Shown: piece after piece, positions 24,937 to 59,911 of the stretch | Layout of the letters: each line of letters begins with the position of its first letter | Position numbering within the stretch: position 1 is the first letter of the stretch | Origin: Nymphaea colorata | Lineage: Eukaryota; Streptophyta; Magnoliopsida; Nymphaeales; Nymphaeaceae | DNA: 64,000 bases | Assembly: GCF_008831285.2 (NCBI RefSeq) | Contig: NC_045139.1 | Coordinates: 16,226,354 to 16,290,353 of the forward strand | Direction: 5' to 3' | The notes under the pieces: model-generated | Database searches by the model: none | Told to the model about the DNA's origin: nothing | What the model saw: only the letters and a program-made list of their open reading frames with translations | Program-made: the position numbers and the translations under genes

Positions 24937-26277
24937 TCACTTAACAAGCCCAAGGTTGAGGATGCCCCAGGAGGCCTTGGGCCAAGACCTTTCCTTTGCC
25001 TTCATCACCAACACCCTGGCCCATGAGATCCACCCTTCCCACGACATCCTCTTGTCCCAGCTGCTTCCCCATTCCAACATGAGCCTCAACCCTACTTCAG
25101 CCTCCCTTTCTCCTTCTTCATAACTCCCCATCGACAGATACGTCTGAGCCAGCACCACATGGGGCTCCCCTACAAATGGATTCTTCTCACAGCACTTGAC
25201 CAGGAGCTCCGCCGCCGTCTCATTTGCTTCTCCTACACCACTCACTGCCTCCCAGTACAGGTCCCTCGCCTCGATTTGCTCATGCTGGTCCAGAACCTTG
25301 GTGCAGTCATCGAAGACCGGGGGGATGACAAGCTCTATTTCCTCCATCCTCTCACTGAAATACCCGTTAACCAAGTCGCCGTTTTCGTTGCTGTTGTCGG
25401 TGCCACGATGATCACCATCGTTTCCAATCCTGCCATTAGCGCCATGATGGTCGCAACCACCATCTTTCCGATCTCTCTCCATTATGTAGAGGATCTCCTC
25501 CCTCGCGATGAGATTGTACAGTGCGCCCATCCGAGAGATGGAATTCATCCACAGACCCGGTTTGCCGTTTCCTGGCCAGAGCGCCGTGAACGAATTGCCG
25601 GTGAACTCCATTCGACCATTCGCGTTGTCGAAGAGTACGTCCTGGAACCCGAAAAGCTGATCGCTGAAGTCGGCCATCGTCATCAGCAGGAATATGGCGA
25701 CGAGCCGGCGGGGCACCACGACGTCTTCTCCCGTTCTGATGTGCTTCACCGTAATTCCCTCCGCCGGCAGGAGAGCCTGCAGCTTCCTCCTCCATTCCGG
25801 AAGGTGGTTATCGCTGGCCACTGGAGGGGGCTTGCTAGAGGCTTCGAGGGAGGCCTGCGAGTCTGCGAGATCTTGGACCAACTCGGCGTCGGTGTAGCGG
25901 AAAAGGAGGTCATCGTGGATAAGGGGTTGGCGAGGAACGATGCAGAAGAGGTGGACGAGATGCTCGGCAGGGCCTCCGATGATGCGGCGGACGTCGGGGC
26001 GGCCCACATCCGGGGGGAAGATGGCGAGGTTAACGTAGGAGTTGGAGTAGGCGGAGTGGAAGAGGCCGCAGCGGGAGACGTGGGGATGAGCCCCCCACAG
26101 GTGGAGGATGCGGTAGACGTCGAGCAGGTGATGGAGAAAGTCGCCGTGTTTGTGCCAGCACTCCCCGGCACCTGCCGACGCCAGCACCTCAACGAACGTC
26201 GGCAGCTCCTCGTCCACGCTGTGGAGCTCCCCTCGCAAGAAGGGCCGAGCCCGCGTCAATATGTCGCCGACAGCCAT
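24937..26277 (-). CDS. DUF6817 (HD-like) domain protein with C-terminal TPR-like segment
   Basis: Intronless gene of 446 residues. The ATG at 26277 is chosen because the family begins with MAVGDIL-type sequence followed by RARPFLRGEL; the frame is open further upstream but has no ATG there. The N-terminal half has GECWHKHG (residues about 38-45), HHLLDVYRIL, and CGLFHSAYSNSYVNLAIF (about 70-87); these histidines resemble an HD-type metal site, and the order matches plant DUF6817 proteins. FCIVPRQPLIHDDLLF and MADFSDQLFGFQD follow. A low-complexity linker rich in D, G, N and H lies around residues 285-315. The C-terminal part (NPFVGEPHVVLAQTYLSMG, then an E-rich helix pair) looks like a tetratricopeptide repeat. 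Biochemical role unknown. The coding DNA is much richer in G+C than its surroundings. Confidence 0.92.
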   Translation of the reverse strand: MAVGDILTRARPFLRGELHSVDEELPTFVEVLASAGAGECWHKHGDFLHHLLDVYRILHLWGAHPHVSRCGLFHSAYSNSYVNLAIFPPDVGRPDVRRIIGGPAEHLVHLFCIVPRQPLIHDDLLFRYTDAELVQDLADSQASLEASSKPPPVASDNHLPEWRRKLQALLPAEGITVKHIRTGEDVVVPRRLVAIFLLMTMADFSDQLFGFQDVLFDNANGRMEFTGNSFTALWPGNGKPGLWMNSISRMGALYNLIAREEILYIMERDRKDGGCDHHGANGRIGNDGDHRGTDNSNENGDLVNGYFSERMEEIELVIPPVFDDCTKVLDQHEQIEARDLYWEAVSGVGEANETAAELLVKCCEKNPFVGEPHVVLAQTYLSMGSYEEGEREAEVGLRLMLEWGSSWDKRMSWEGWISWARVLVMKAKERSWPKASWGILNLGLVK

Positions 26278-27393
26278 GCTTTCCTTCAACTCCCCCGCTG
26301 CTGCTTCGTTTTCCACGAGAGACAGAGACCCAGAATCGTGGCACCAGTATAACGCCTATAACTAGGTTCGAGGAGAGAAAGGGATAAGGATAAAGATTGA
26401 GTGCCATCGGACTATCCTCAAAACGCTAATTGCTGCATTTCACGAAAATCCCCTTCTTATCAGTCAAATCCCCCGTTTGTTTGCAGTTAAAATGGTTCTA
26501 TCGTTCTTTAACCGTAACAGACCCATTCCTTGCGTTATCTGTTCTGCAGATATTTGACAGAACCCGCCAAATCCGAGTAGAAGAAATGTTACAGTGTCAT
26601 CGTGGATTCAAAATGAATTCGCATTTAAATATTATTTGCAAGATCCAGTCTAAAAATCAACCAAGATACTTAGATGTTAGTTTCCATTAATCTTGTTTTC
26701 AAAATCTGGCAGCTTAGTTCATGTAAGAAAGGTATTCAGGCATCAACTACACACTGTAAATCTTTTTTTATCCGATTAGGCTATAATTAAAGCGTGCAAA
26801 GGCTATTTTAAGTAGGTGGTATTTTCTGCCCCTTATTTTATACTCTGCTCTTAGAACGCAAAACCAACCACAATATCTTTCTCATTCCTATTATTGTTGA
26901 ACACAATGCCCATTTCCGTCTTCCCCCACCCATGCGGAGTACGCTGACAACGGTTTCTGAGTGATTGTGAGTAATATTTACTTACAGGAAAGCACGAAAC
27001 GAGAGACTCTCGGCCGTTTGGTTAAAGGCTTCATGAAAGTAGTTACACAAATTTAATAAAGAAATACATGCTTGGTATTCAGCCTCTCCAAGAATGTCGA
27101 AACAGGCAAGTATAACAAAAAATACAAATCTTCTTTTGTGGCATCTGCATGAACGCCAAGCACCAAATAAAATAAAATTAGTAAACTGCAACCAGTTCTA
27201 GCACATTAGCGATATCTATTCGGTTGGTGTAATACGCATTCCGCAAGCTTCCACCATTTTTCTGTAGTCCATCCAAGCTTACAAGTGTTGCATGGATCAT
27301 ATGGAAGACAAAAAGAAGGATCGGGTGCAGCTTCAAGAGAGAGGGACGAGTGTTCCATGAAGAATTCCCATAATCGCGGTTGACGGAACATAA
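26278..27393 (-). promoter_or_regulatory. Upstream region of the DUF6817 gene / downstream of CDT1
   Basis: 1.1 kb between two genes on the same strand. It must hold the CDT1 3' UTR and the DUF6817 promoter. A short upstream ATG (about 26407) opens a different frame that overlaps the main start. No clear TATA box found. Confidence 0.4.
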
Positions 27394-31043
<3,650 letters not shown>

Positions 31044-34569: not shown

Positions 34570-36369
34570 TCACCTCTGGAGCTCTGTTCTGCTGCAGGAT
34601 GGAAGCGGAGCTCCACATAAGCATTGGTTGTGCGCATATGCTGCTGCAGGGAAGACGTTGAAAGGCCTCTTCTGTGGTATTTGCCCACAAAGATAATTGC
34701 TTCTGAAGTTTGCATGCCTTAGGCTGCCAAGGGTCTTAGGGATGTTCCCTCCAAGTCTGTTGGTGGAGACATCAAGCCATTCTAGAGACTGCAATTGGCC
34801 CAAGTTTGCAGGGATGTTACCCTGAATGTTGTTTCTTGAGATATCCAGCCTCCGAAGATTGACCAAGTTTGACATTGAGTTGGGGATTGTGCCTGCAATT
34901 CTGTTGCTACACAAATCCAGTGATCTTAGATTTGAACCCTGCCTAAACTCAGGAAGTGTCCCTTCAATCCTATTCCAAGACAAGTTCACAATCTCCAGAA
35001 ATTTGCCGATGTTGTTTGTGATAAATGCAGAAATGGATCCATAAAGCCTGTTCGAATGCATGTCGATGAGAGACAGCCCACTTGGAAGGATAATTCCTGA
35101 TACATCTGATTCTAGCATATTGTTTGACAACTTTGCTGTGTCTAAACTTGTCATTGAGACGAAGAAGTTGCCAATTTGACCCGTCAGGGAGTTATCAGAT
35201 AGATCTATAGAATTCAGGCTGGAAGCATTCGAAAAATGTGGGAGTGGCCCTTCGATTCTGCACCCTGCAAGGTGGACATCTCTCAATTCTCTGTTCGCAA
35301 TCCAAGCTGGGACACTACCCAAATGGAGATTGTTGTATGAAAGATCGATGCGCAACAGGGAAGGCATGCCTTGAGCAAGAGAAGCAGGCAACGGGTCAGA
35401 AAACCCGTTTCTTGAGAGGTTAAGATGCCATAGGTTTGGTAGTCTGCTCAGTGAATCTGGAATGGTGCCTGTAAGGAGATTTTGGCTGACAGAAAGAGTG
35501 CAAAGAGATCTCAAATTACCAATCTGGCGTGGGAGCTCACCAGTAAGGTGGTTGTTGTTTAAAATTAAGCTGTGAATATACGGCAAGTTGCTAATTGAAT
35601 TTGGTAAACTCCCACTGAATTCATTGTCAGATAGGTCAATATATTTGAGATTCTTCAGTTCCCCAAAAAAATCAGGAATGTGCCCAGACAAACTATTGGA
35701 GCAGAGGTCAAGGGACTCCAGGCGACGAAGTTTTCCCAATGTGGACGGAATTCCTCCTGTTAAGACATTCTTCCCCAGATTTATCTGCACCAGATTCTTT
35801 AGGCTCCCCAGTTCTGGAGGAACAACTCCCCCCAACCTGTTACCACTGAGAGAGAGGGCCTCGAGCAAGGTCAACTTACCCAAGCTTGAAGGAATACTTC
35901 CTCCCAGCATGTTGTCTTCCAAATACAGTTGTGTGAGAGATGATAACTTGGAAATGCTTTCAGGGATCGGGCCCATGATCTGCTTCCCTGAGATCAACAT
36001 GACCTGCAAGAATTCAAGGTTACCTAAAGAAGGGGAAAGGACGCCCTTCATGAAGCTGGTGCCATCTGAACCTGCTTGCAGTTGCAATACAATCACCCTT
36101 CCTGTTTTGGTATCACACTGGATTCCCTCCCATGCTCCACAGCAGTCTTCACCAACCCATGTGGACAGAAAGCCTGTTGTATCTCTCAAAATGCTGGATT
36201 TGAAGCTCAGAAGAGTAGCTCTGTCTGAAGCAGCGCAAGTGGGGTAGGCTGACTCTGTTTCTGCTGAAACCCCAGGTGAGTCGAGAAGAAAATGGAAGCT
36301 AACAGCTAAAATGAAGAGCAAATGGAGAATCCGTCCGTGTTCTCTCATTTTGGACTTCAAGAGATCCAT
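34570..36369 (-). CDS. Secreted leucine-rich-repeat protein (At5g23400-type), no kinase
   Basis: Intronless, 599 residues from the ATG at 36369. The N-terminus carries a hydrophobic signal segment (ILHLLFILAVSFHFLLDS). Next is an LRRNT_2 cap (CAASDRATLLSFKSSILRDT ... DCCGAWEGIQCD, about residues 45-85). About 19 plant-type LRRs of 24 residues follow, with repeated LxxLDLSxNxLxGxIP text. The C-terminal cap contains NYLCGQIPQKRPFNVFPAAA and ends LCGAPLPSCSRTELQR. No transmembrane helix or kinase follows, so the product is probably secreted to the cell wall/apoplast. It matches the Arabidopsis At5g23400-like LRR family end to end, including GTIPDSLSRLPNLWHLNLSR and the SVPAWI block. A second Met nine residues in (MREHGRIL) is an alternative start. 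Function of this subfamily is not established; ligand or receptor partners are unknown. Confidence 0.93.
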   Translation of the reverse strand: MDLLKSKMREHGRILHLLFILAVSFHFLLDSPGVSAETESAYPTCAASDRATLLSFKSSILRDTTGFLSTWVGEDCCGAWEGIQCDTKTGRVIVLQLQAGSDGTSFMKGVLSPSLGNLEFLQVMLISGKQIMGPIPESISKLSSLTQLYLEDNMLGGSIPSSLGKLTLLEALSLSGNRLGGVVPPELGSLKNLVQINLGKNVLTGGIPSTLGKLRRLESLDLCSNSLSGHIPDFFGELKNLKYIDLSDNEFSGSLPNSISNLPYIHSLILNNNHLTGELPRQIGNLRSLCTLSVSQNLLTGTIPDSLSRLPNLWHLNLSRNGFSDPLPASLAQGMPSLLRIDLSYNNLHLGSVPAWIANRELRDVHLAGCRIEGPLPHFSNASSLNSIDLSDNSLTGQIGNFFVSMTSLDTAKLSNNMLESDVSGIILPSGLSLIDMHSNRLYGSISAFITNNIGKFLEIVNLSWNRIEGTLPEFRQGSNLRSLDLCSNRIAGTIPNSMSNLVNLRRLDISRNNIQGNIPANLGQLQSLEWLDVSTNRLGGNIPKTLGSLRHANFRSNYLCGQIPQKRPFNVFPAAAYAHNQCLCGAPLPSCSRTELQR

Positions 36370-36526
36370 CAAGTTATGGTTGATCCTCTCTGTCTCACTC
36401 TCCTATTTGCTGGGATGATCTTCTTCCTCGGGTGCGGAGAAACGCATAGTGACCGGAAGGGCGTGAAGAGGAAAGAGGAGGGGAGTAAGGCAGGGAAAGC
36501 TGGACGCATGAACCTAGGCCTGCGTT

Positions 36527-53749: not shown

Positions 53750-54540
53750 GACGCTTTTTATCTTCAATATCTCTTTCCTTGTTGATGTTTTTTTCTTATT
53801 ATTTTTGACTGCTTATTTCCAACCGCCGTGTGCTGCGTCTGCCGGCGCTGGATAAAAAGTTCTTTTCCTTTTATTGCCGTTGCCGTCCTTTCCTCTTTGG
53901 CTTTTTTTTTTCCATTTCTATTTACCGCGTCTGTCTAGGGTTTAAAAATGGTCAGTAGATACAGTGTGTCTTCGCTGTCTCCCTTCCTCTCATGACTTCA
54001 TCTTCCTAATTTCTTCCTCTCTTCCCTCCCTTGTTTCCCCTCTGTCTCTCTTTTCGTTTCTTTTCATGTGTTCTCTTTGTTTTGTGCTTCCCTTGTTCGA
54101 TGGTCTTCTTCCAATTTCCCGTGCGAGAAAACCCATTTCCCTGTTCATAATTCGTGTTCTTTCGTCAAGGTAGACGGAATTTCTGGGGTGCTGGGTCACG
54201 GATATTCTCCCTTTGCGTGTCTGCGTTTAATTTTTCCACCCCCTTTCCTGCTCTCCTCTTTCTTACCCTCTTTTTCTGGCTGACATATCTGTCTCTCTGC
54301 CGGTTGTGAAATTATTTGCTTTCCGACCGATTCTGTGCCGTTGGATCTGCAAGAATTTCTGATAGCTGTTTTGTCCTTTACCATCTGTTTCCATCGGGTT
54401 TCAGTAATCGGACTCGGGATTTATATTTTTCTAGCTCGTTTACCTTTTAGGATTTCTTTCTGGGTAGGTCGGTTTTCATTTTTGGGAGGTTCTCTCGTCT
54501 AAGTGAGGGAGAAACGGGGAAGTGCTGTCCCGGTCGGAAT
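53750..54540 (+). promoter_or_regulatory. Promoter and CT-rich 5' leader of the MYB gene
   Basis: Pyrimidine-rich leader-type sequence follows a GATAAAAAG box (about 53851). A telo-box (TAGGGTTT, 53936-53943) sits at the likely transcription start. Two short upstream open frames lie here: 53948-53995 (15 codons plus stop) and 54066-54173 (35 codons plus stop). A possible leader intron runs from AAGGTAGAC (about 54170) to TGGGTAG (about 54467). Upstream frames in this position can lower translation, but this is inference. Confidence 0.5.
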
Positions 54541-54582
54541 TTGGACGAGGGACTAGATGACAACCGATTGGGGGGGAATTCG

Positions 54583-57500
54583 GTGGCGGAAACGGTGGAC
54601 GGTTCCGAGTGGAGCAGGGAGCAGGAGAAGGCGTTCGAGAATGCGCTTGCGACTCATCCGGAAGATTCGAGCGACAGGTGGGAGCGAATTGCTTCATCGG
54701 TGGCCGGGAAGAGCGCGGTGGAGGTGAAGCGCCACTACGACGTCCTTGTGGAGGACATCGATGGGATTGAATCCGGGAGGGTGCCCCTTCCCAGCTACGC
54801 CTCATCCTCTTCTTCCGATGCGTTTGGGGATGCATCTGCCGAGAGTGGAGGTGGAAGGAAAAGCGCTCATTTTGGCGCCGTGCAGAGCTCAGAGTCCAGC
54901 CTTGGTGGAAAGACTGGGTCCCGGTCGGACCAGGAACGACGCAAAGGGATAGCTTGGACAGAGGAAGAGCATAGGTATTCTTCTGCCGCCTTAAATTTCT
55001 TCGCTACTACTCGATTTGCGTGCTGGTATCCAATGAAAAATCTCCATGGCTCTTTATTCTAGCTTTTACATAAATCTATTTCTTGGTGGAACTGGAAGCT
55101 GGCAACTTTAGTCATACTGGTAAAACTACCAGTACTTGAGTTCCAAATGCTTACTTTTCATTTTCTGCTGGATACTCACCATGTGCAGAAATGGTTCCAT
55201 GTACGGTCTAGCTGCCGTTGAGAGAATTTCTGTTTGTTTGGTCACTTGGTATTTTGTGATTTCAAGTGTTGGATGTTTCCGCTGTAAATATTATCTTCTA
55301 AAATTCATTTTGAAATCATTTGTAATTTGTCTAAGTTAAGGACAGCAACTTTGGTCATTTTCCAGGTTCTATATCCTCGTGTATCGTTGGTAGTAGTGGT
55401 GGTGAAGACATCTTTTTACGGTGTTCTTTCATAGTCAACATCTTTCTTATTTCTTCGATGATTCTGCTTCAGGACGACACGAATTTGGTCTCTGGTTAAT
55501 TTTGTTCTACGTGAATGGATTAGGATTGAGATTTTTCTTCCACCTAGTTGGTTTCCTTTTCATCTTCAGTGATGACATATGCTGGTCATGCTATTATTGG
55601 GGTGAATAACAACATTGATATTCAGGTTCAACTCTGAACAGAGCTTCTGAAAGTGCATCTCTGAACAGAGATTCTTGCTCGCTTGTGCGAAAGGGTGATT
55701 GTAGACCCTTGAGCACCTGATACTTGATACTAGATTTGGTCAGTTGTACCTGTTGGTTGTAGAGTTGGCCAATCCTTTAGGGAAGCTCTGGATGTCTAAT
55801 CATGTACATGCATGCGTTTGACTTTTAGCACACCTGTAATGTGTGAAACCAGTTTTAGTTTTCTATCTCTTCGTATTTGCTTCTTACCATTGAGTCTGGT
55901 AAATCTTTAAGTAATACTTAGGCCGCAACAGATATGTTCCGTTAGATGTTACAATTGAAGGTGAGTCCCTCATGTGAAAAACATGGGGAGGTCCACATTT
56001 TACCAGCTATGTTTTATTCCCATACGCGAATCGTGTAGCGTTGAGTAATGGGTAAATAACTATATTGTTGAGTAGTGGCCTAATTTTGGGATTTGCTGTA
56101 ATTACTTCATAAAACCCATGGGATGAGGATTTTAGTTTAGTTTTTGCCATGTATGACTCTTGAATTTGGGAGTTATATCATTATTATGGTGTGTGGCGGC
56201 TCTTAGAACACTGTAAAGTAGCAGCCCAATTCCACCATCTTTTTCCTCACAGTTTCTATCTCCTGGAAAGGAAAATTAGCCTTGTCATTAATGGCTTTTA
56301 TGTTCTTAAGGAAGACGAAGTATGGGACTTGCTCGGAGAAACTTTGTCAAGTACTTCGTAGTGGAACTGCGAATATTTTAGCTTCTGAGCTTCGCATCTG
56401 GAATTCTTTAATAATCTTCTTTGTTGTCTACGAGTCACAGTCAACATGGACCATTTTGCTGAAGCTAATACTTTTTCTTTGCAAATTATCGTTCCATCCT
56501 TGAAGGGGCCAAAGACATGTATTTTTTTTATTCTATATGCTTTTTTTCCCACTTATCTAGTTTTCACATCCATATCTGCGGTGGCTTGTTATAGAAAACA
56601 CTGATCCTCTTTAAATCGATTGTTGATTCTCTGCTTTGCCAATTTTCTCACCTTTTTGTCAAGGAAACAGAGAACATGGACAAACACATTTTAGCATGTA
56701 TTTTCACATCTGCTGATATGCAGCATAAAAGCACAAGGCTTCCTATACTTCAGTAACCAATTGCAATGCTCTTGTAATTATATTGCCTATGTGAGATATT
56801 ATGTTTTTGTTGTTGCTGCTACTGTTATTATTGTTATTATGTATGTGATACTGAATTTGGGTTCACATCTAAGTCACATGGGTAAAGTCCACGTACTCGT
56901 ACTCGTGTTGCTGTACCCGTACGCAAAATGGGTACTTGGACACTCTCGGGTACCTTTAGATTCAAATTGCTTAATTTTAAGTTTGATTTAATTTTTTTCA
57001 CCTTACTTTTCATTCTACTTAAAGTTATTATTCATTAACATAGTAACATACTAATGTTTTTTATTTATATCACTTGTTTACTAAAATGTTGCTTTCATTT
57101 TGATTTTTTGTGTTATTTTGCATATATAGATACATATATCCTGCCGTACCCCGTACCTACATTGTTAAAGTTGTCGTGTTCGTACCCATACCCAAACTGT
57201 ACCCGTACCCATGTGACACCTACTCTTAGTTCATTCTTAGTTGTTTGTAAATAGATATTCAGGTATAGCAGGCTGGTGCTAGTCCTTTTCTACCGGCTCC
57301 ATCTTCATTTTGGAGATTTTGTGTGAGAACTTGATCCATCGAAACTTATTGACATTGGGATAATAGAGGGGCCCTTGGTCAGCAGATCATGTGTGTAAAT
57401 ATCCACTTTAGCTTTTTAGTTATTTTATTTACATCAGTAGATACAGTATGCCCCAAAATGTTGGTACAAAGAAGTCATGATTTTTTTTATTACTAGACTG

Positions 57501-59911
57501 GATTTTTTGTGAGTTGACAAGGTTAAGAATTGATTGACTTTTTTGATCATGTAGAATCCATCTACATATGGTTGGATTTGTGAAAAACCGCAAACAGAGT
57601 TCTACGGGGCTGGACGGTTGATGTAGTTCATGGACGGCACATTTCATGTGTGTATGTGTGTGTGTATAAACGTGTGTCCATCTGAAACAGGAAAACAAAA
57701 CAAAGGGTGGGTGAACTTAAACTTCCACACCACAAGGGAGATATTACCGACTGCTGGTCATCACTTTCCAAGTCCCTTTGTACCTCTAATTCACGTCACC
57801 CGACATATCCAACGAGCTGATGCCGGAACAATCCACAACATGCGAGAATTTTATTCTCTGTCCAATACTAGATACTCTTGCACCTGCTGTTGTGTCTGTG
57901 CTAGTTTGCTAACAGCAAGCACATTGTAACCTCATGTGAGTTTCCATACAAGAGTGCTTGATTATAAAAGTGCAACTAGCCTTCTGGGCCAATCGGAGTA
58001 CCCCAAATAAAATGGACCGAAATTGCCTTTTGAGTGCCTGCAGAAGGTGGTGAAACCTTACCTTTGAGCACACGGCATTGAAGACACATGCAGGTAGCAT
58101 GGTATCTGAAATAGGGCATGAAGGACAAGTGGCGCCAAAAAGAAGTTAGAAGTATTGATAAAATTTTTAAATCAAGTCCGTAAGTGAAACGTGGAGGCTG
58201 AGACTGGTAGCTGGTTACGTTGGTTTTATAAGGAGCTCACATAGGTAGATCATATTGATTGAACCAGAGAATGATGAGATGGCAAGAAGAGGCGATAATT
58301 TCACAAGGTTGGTTAGACAGGAGCTTCTGAGCCCTCTCAAAAGGATGTAAATCCAGTATAAGGGCAATGGACGAAGCAGTTAGGTTGTACTTAGATTTTC
58401 GAGCTTGCATGTCAAGGTGAAAAGCATCTTAATGCTCTCATCATATTAGTAGAGGTGAATGGTGTCCTTTCTTATTGTGAACAGAAACGACTTAGCTTTC
58501 TTAAGTCCTTTGTGTTTCCTATACTACTACTTTCATCTCTCGTCTCTCCAGTAACTCCCTTCAGTAGACTCCATTCGCTCTCTGTCACTTGATTCTGATT
58601 GTGATTCCTAAAAGACTGTTTTTTCATCTTTTAATGAAGGATTATAATACGAGCTTCTATCAGGGGGTCCTGCCCAAAAGAAAATGTTAATTATATGGTC
58701 AGAATGAGGCAAGCAAATCTGACCTATGTTTATATGCGCTCTTCCCTCCTTTCTCTCTTCCTCCTCCACCCCCACCTTCCCTTACCCCCCAAAAAAGGTT
58801 AAAAGGACATGATCACCTAAGATGCTAGATAATGCCTGTTTATAATTTTACTAAATAGGTGAAACCCATATATTCGCTACTCAATTTACATGGTTTGATA
58901 GTGAAGTTGTTTCTCCGTTGCCTTGCCCCGTCTCTGCATTCATAACTTTCATGTTTGATTTTGGCTCGGTATGTGCTGGCTTGGGTGCACTGTTTGCAAT
59001 GTATGCAATTAACGTGGAGATTTGTTCCTGAGCTTTTTTTATAATTTTTTTTAATAGAATAGAAACATCATGATGGCGTCCAGTTTGCATCAAGTTGTTT
59101 CTTACCCATCAAGAGGAAAAAGGGGAGTAGCAAAATTGGTAAACAAATACTTGTTGTTGGTGATCCTAGAAAAAAATGCGTCTTGTAGAATGTAAATTCA
59201 ATCGTGATTTCTCTTATGCACGCCAAACTTTATCCAGAATGCAAGTGAACCAACTTAATTTCAGTGTTAGCCCTCTGTTTTGCTTCTTGACGTGGATTTT
59301 GATCGAGTGTTTATTGATAATTATTCCACTTTTGCTGGAAAACAAGCAACTTTTTTTTTTTCCGATGCTGGAACTGATTTCTCATACTCCGCACGCACGC
59401 TTATTTTGTCGTGTTCAGGTTGTTTTTACTTGGTTTAGAGAAGTATGGAAAAGGTGACTGGCGTAGCATCTCAAGGAACTTTGTGATCTCGAGGACACCT
59501 ACCCAGGTGGCTAGTCATGCACAAAAGTACTTTATTCGCCTCAATTCAATTAACAAAGACAGAAGGCGATCAAGCATTCACGATATCACCAGCGTCAGCA
59601 ATGGCGACATGCAGGCAGCTCAAGGTCCTATTACAGGACAGACGAATGGAGCTGCTGTATCAGCTGGAAAACCTGCCAAGGCAGCCAGTCAGTTGCCTGG
59701 TGCTCCAGGTGTTGGTGTATATGGGACTCCTATTGGTCAGCCCATTGGTGGGCCGCTTGTCTCTGCTGTAGGAACACCGGTAAGTCTACCTTCTCCTGGG
59801 CATATGGCGTATGGAGTTCGTGCGCCAGTCCCCGGTGGCATGGTACCAGGTGCTCCGATGAACCTTGCTCCGATGGCATACCCAATGCCTCAGACTTCGG
59901 CGCAGAGGTGA
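54583..59911 (+). CDS. DIVARICATA/SRM1-type two-repeat MYB transcription factor, start codon missing
   Basis: Exon 1 ends 54974 (CATAG, then GTATTC) and exon 2 is 59419-59911; the 4444 bp intron splits Arg in EEHR-LFLLGL. Counted from the GTG at 54583 the product has 294 residues (Arabidopsis SRM1 has 298). The N-terminal SANT/MYB repeat has [32 protein letters not shown] and HYDVLVEDI. The second repeat ([33 protein letters not shown]) contains the SHAQKYF motif typical of DNA-binding I-box MYBs. A Gly/Pro-rich tail ends MPQTSAQR. The role is nuclear transcription control; relatives act in stress and flower-symmetry programmes. Anomaly: the frame is open back to a stop at 54448 but has no ATG. 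The start given is the codon that best matches the family N-terminus; an out-of-frame ATG lies at 54557. Confidence 0.85.
56869..57220 (+). mobile_element. MITE-like element in the MYB intron
   Basis: GTCACATGGGTA (56873-56884) and its inverse TACCCATGTGAC (about 57206-57217) bound about 350 bp. Inside both ends lie degenerate CGTACCCGTACC repeats, a pattern common to non-autonomous DNA elements in plant introns. No clear target duplication found. Confidence 0.5.

Follow-up and report, generated by a model that had tools for sequence, protein, structure and literature searches.

SRM1 of Arabidopsis carries two MYB repeats, the second of which contains the SHAQKYF motif, and a gene of the same layout was found in the DNA of Nymphaea colorata analyzed here. 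Two coding exons and a matching C-terminus are presumably further points of likeness. The gene differs from the SRM1/MYBS genes in one respect, as it has no in-frame ATG in this assembly. The second described system is RADIALIS, whose solved chain (PDB 2cjj) covers the first repeat alone, whereas the MYB gene has two.

With respect to the start codon, the closest precedents are other plant genes. Exclusive non-AUG starts are described for AGAMOUS, tobacco RpoTp and Nuphar RpoTp in PMC3022604, and the MYB gene resembles these in having no usable in-frame AUG near its start. For the Nuphar RpoTp the CUG start was demonstrated with GFP fusions (PMC3022604), whereas a sequence error is the likelier explanation for the locus described here. 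A literature search for the start codon of SRM1/MYB/DIVARICATA genes found no paper that combines these subjects.

Structure and Identity of the MYB Gene

The window, i.e., the whole stretch of 64,000 nucleotides that was analyzed, corresponds to C2:16226354-16290353 of the searched assembly (407,766,735 bases in 783 contigs). The gene and its parts are as follows:

54583 to 59911, + strand: MYB gene from GTG to stop, with one intron
54583..54974, + strand: exon 1 counted from the GTG, first SANT/MYB repeat (frame, splice, Pfam and structure matches)
54975..59418, + strand: intron, GT...AG (donor CATAG/GTATTC, acceptor TTCAG/G)
59419..59911, + strand: exon 2 with the SHAQKYF repeat, C-terminus and stop (frame, splice, Pfam)

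The spliced gene (54583-54974 joined to 59419-59911) comprises 294 codons counted from the GTG. Two stretches of its product match the Pfam family PF00249 (Myb_DNA-binding) with an E-value of 8.9e-22, and the first repeat aligns to the RADIALIS structure with an E-value of 2.2e-19. The two MYB/SANT repeats expected of an R-R type MYB (SRM1/MYBS, DIVARICATA-like) are present, as is the SHAQKYF motif of the second repeat, located at 59513, which is a further feature of this type. Frame reading and Pfam showed both exons to be otherwise free of stops and frameshifts. The gene had been described as intact apart from its start, and the open exons, the GT-AG intron and the presence of both repeats bear this out. 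It encodes an ordinary two-repeat (R-R type) transcription factor, which by resemblance probably belongs to the SRM1/MYBS group.

A search of the assembly for a second copy of the locus returned a single place at 100% identity. Rfam at gathering scores gave no match in the 64-kb window, and a scan for sigma-70 promoters was dropped because it is inapplicable to plant DNA.

The Start Region Contains No In-Frame ATG

Five features upstream of and at the beginning of exon 1 are needed for the following analysis:

54103..54556, + strand: ATG-free stretch, read as 5′ leader (ATG-to-ATG gap)
54448..54450, + strand: stop TAG at which the open MYB frame ends on its upstream side; could also serve as a 3′ splice site (TTTTAG/GAT; sequence)
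54557..54559, + strand: ATG ending the ATG-free stretch and probably the authentic start, here shifted by one frame (sequence)
54570..54576, + strand: seven-G run in which a base is probably missing (sequence; shuffles)
54583..54585, + strand: GTG then GCG, alternative start position, with the first MYB Trp 9 codons further on (sequence; relatives)

The MYB frame is open from 54451, and ATG is absent from it up to the conserved block. This is what the original prediction had stated, and all of its coordinates hold. Exon 1 encodes no methionine, and after splicing the frame does not reach a Met until residue 195, counted from the GTG. An in-frame ATG is a feature of the gene model and not one that defines an R-R type MYB; its absence is probably due to a sequence error. 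The 132 nt of open frame upstream of the GTG are unremarkable, since 23% of the shuffled sequences were equally open.

No two successive ATGs of the window lie farther apart than those at 54100 and 54557 (457 nt, compared to a maximum of 400 nt on the − strand). The ATG-free stretch holds 0 ATG where a mean of 4.4 is expected from local dinucleotide shuffles (P 0.004). A gap of at least this length arises somewhere in 26 of 200 whole-window shuffles, so that only the place of the gap counts. With the GTG as start codon, a single ATG falls within the leader, which is again less than in shuffles (P 0.016), and an ATG-poor leader therefore fits a start at this codon too. The same stretch (54103-54556, +) holds about twice as many CTG triplets as its shuffles (16 vs. 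7.4) and half as many TTG triplets (7 vs. 13.6).

The ATG at 54557 was confirmed to be out of frame and to be followed by the seven-G run, and one added base in this run restores the frame, as had been proposed. Only three runs of at least seven G or C occur in the 64-kb window. In two sets of local shuffles such a run fell within the 26 nt between the ATG and the GTG in 1.2% and 1.5% of cases, respectively, while, with any base counted, 3.6% of the 26-nt segments in the window hold a run of at least seven. Shifted by one base, the ATG would lie 18 codons before the first MYB Trp. Its sequence context is weak, with T in position −3 and A in position +4.

Relatives in the Same Genome

A search with the exon 1 protein sequence identified at least 16 matching places, namely the window itself and at least 15 others. 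Thirteen relatives (L003 to L015) were counted; L016 and L017, which are long proteins with a SANT stretch, were left out and also carry in-frame ATGs upstream. All 13 counted relatives have an in-frame ATG within the open stretch holding the first repeat, and none is present in this exon of the MYB gene. For none of these relatives does an additional coding exon have to be assumed further upstream, and the MYB gene stands as the exception to the 13 counted. From L003 to L015, the distance from the Trp to the nearest in-frame ATG is 7, 15, 10, 9, 10, 9, 7, 29, 10, 10, 9, 19, and 13 codons. In 11 of the 13 these candidate starts are located at 7–15 codons.

The sequence ATGGC is found 9 or 10 codons before the Trp in 6 of the 13 relatives. 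These six match the query in the first repeat only and are RADIALIS-like in look. The closest relative among the matches listed, L003, is located on the same contig and is 57% identical in exon 1. Its start region reads ATGTCT at 7 codons before the Trp, and its C-terminus (L003 is listed with L018 and L019) differs from that of the MYB gene. Placing the start by a DNA alignment of the 5′ ends of the MYB gene and L003 was abandoned, as the two are too diverged. Five of the 13 relatives carry, in the 500 bases upstream, an out-of-frame ATG that overlaps the start; the nearest lies at 49 bases.

The exon 2 query gave no relatives in viral contigs and plasmids, and a single one (L001) in genome contigs. 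L001:8880-9302 encodes a plant- or alga-like part of the second MYB repeat near the end of a bin contig assigned to an uncultured Opitutae bacterium, where its presence is probably a binning or assembly mix-up. As it comprises part of the second repeat only, it was of no use as a guide to the start.

A Base Is Probably Missing From the G Run

The explanation that we prefer, with a probability of roughly one half, is that the authentic start is the ATG at 54557 and that the assembly is one base short at 54570-54576. The assembled sequence would have dropped one G from the run. In the correct sequence, a scanning ribosome would start at 54557, the first AUG after an AUG-free leader, and reading would continue from there straight into the MYB repeat. 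The missing base, the fault in the assembly and the position of the transcription start are inferred. The nearest ATG of the relatives spans 7 to 29 codons, and the 18 codons of ATG 54557 are consistent with this range.

The errors of PacBio-type reads are mostly indels, and homopolymer indels are commoner than single substitutions, both as errors and as mutations. Canu, Arrow, and Pilon were used on PacBio RSII reads to produce the published Nymphaea colorata assembly, which comprises 409 Mb (1,429 contigs, 804 scaffolds; PMC7015852). Its description names PRJNA565347 for the reads and states that Illumina reads, too, went into the polishing of this probable source assembly, which counts against an error (PMC7015852).

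If the assembly is indeed short of one base, the consequence is a matter of annotation only, as the gene would be truncated or called a pseudogene for a single base. If the sequence is right, the locus would add to the plant genes that initiate at a non-AUG codon, or it would represent the natural loss of a conserved regulator of which a diverged duplicate is left.

Alternative Explanations

The original prediction had offered two simple explanations, the short G run and an A-to-G change at 54583. Both survived the analysis, which leans toward the G run. In the second, the start was an ATG at 54583 whose first base is now G, or was misread as G, so that the start would be lost or a weak start would remain at GUG. 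The GTG was said to stand where the family has ATG-GC, and this was corroborated by the relatives: it lies at 9 codons and is followed by GC (the sequence after it is GCGGAA), in the place where the six relatives have ATGGC. Of the local shuffles, 1.8% have a near-cognate codon followed by GC at this distance (9 or 10 codons), so the coincidence required here is about equal to that for the G run (1.2–1.5% vs. 1.8%). When the position is relaxed to 7–20 codons, however, a near-cognate codon is present in 91% of the shuffles, and one with GC after it in 11.5%. In the alignment to the RADIALIS chain, query residue 6 pairs with chain residue 7, which puts the first residue of the chain one codon upstream of the GTG. 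The RADIALIS-like look of the six relatives, together with the different start of L003, argues against this position.

The choice between the two is based on the greater frequency of homopolymer indels compared to substitutions, which also holds for errors in long-read assemblies, and on the handicap that an out-of-frame AUG only 26 nt ahead would mean for a start at 54583. ATG 54557 would be such an overlapping AUG, and none of the 13 relatives has one this close. The handicap argument is weak, since five of the relatives have an out-of-frame ATG of this kind as well. A changed ATG at 54583 is considered unlikely.

Slightly less probable still is a start in a separate upstream exon that is spliced to the open frame beginning at 54451. 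Such an exon had been rated less likely before, and the present analysis agrees, even though seven splice models starting from two ATGs (53588 and 53948) pass a loose donor score. The best-looking model starts at ATG 53948 (A in position −3, G in position +4), leaves at GTCAGT and is joined to TTTACCTTTTAG/GAT at 54450, so that the stop codon of the MYB frame would itself be the splice site. Base composition changes sharply near 54503, and the MYB frame at 54505-54555 is nearly as coding-like as exon 1 (coding score of 0.51 vs. 0.58 per codon). The other frames of this segment, and of exon 1, score positive as well. Directly upstream of the GTG the coding signal is weak, with nearly equal scores in the other frames, and a stretch of nine codons is too short for such statistics. 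Splice models that pass a loose threshold should arise by chance, all 13 counted relatives have their in-frame ATG without a splice of this kind, and ATG should turn up in a stretch that is largely intron.

The one-base deletion in the G run could also be real in this plant and recent, leaving a null or weak allele. The sequence evidence for it is that of the preferred explanation, G runs mutate often, and the diverged copy L003 could buffer the loss. The two exons are without any other stop or frameshift, however, and the C-terminus of the MYB gene appears more conserved than that of L003 when compared with SRM1 proteins. We regard a true deletion as improbable and less likely than a fault introduced in assembly or polishing. 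The otherwise open gene agrees with the earlier preference for an error or a young lesion.

The possibility that the MYB gene makes its regulator from a non-AUG start (ACG 54514 or TTG 54541) or through slippage on the G run, and that its start region is a translational control point, appears highly doubtful. A correct sequence with a protein starting at a non-AUG codon such as ACG 54514 or TTG 54541 is itself very improbable. Both codons have a strong context and are located upstream of ATG 54557, strong near-cognate contexts are also found at 54592 and 54595, and an AUG-free leader with an open frame would suit such a start. Near-cognate codons are frequent by chance, however, and none of the 13 relatives needs one. 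Non-AUG initiation is also called rare in plants (PMC3022604). Precedents do exist, as exclusive non-AUG starts are documented for a few plant genes (PMC3022604).

Slippage of ribosomes or polymerase on G GGG GGA, from the frame of ATG 54557 into the MYB frame, is scarcely credible: the run is a slippery heptamer in that frame, but no stimulating structure beyond that of shuffles was found in the next 100 bases (z +0.79), for which programmed −1 frameshifting was rejected, and we know of no frameshift so soon after a start.

Other Genes in the Window

Exon pieces at 28254-30517 (−) resemble a CDT1-type replication factor; two of these pieces were scanned with Pfam and gave no match. A DUF6817 gene (PF20680, E-value 5.8e-29) has a long open frame at 24940-26355 (−), and another long one lies on the opposite strand at 25027-26349. 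A gene for a leucine-rich-repeat protein is located at 34573-36402 (−), where the frame stays open for about 610 codons.
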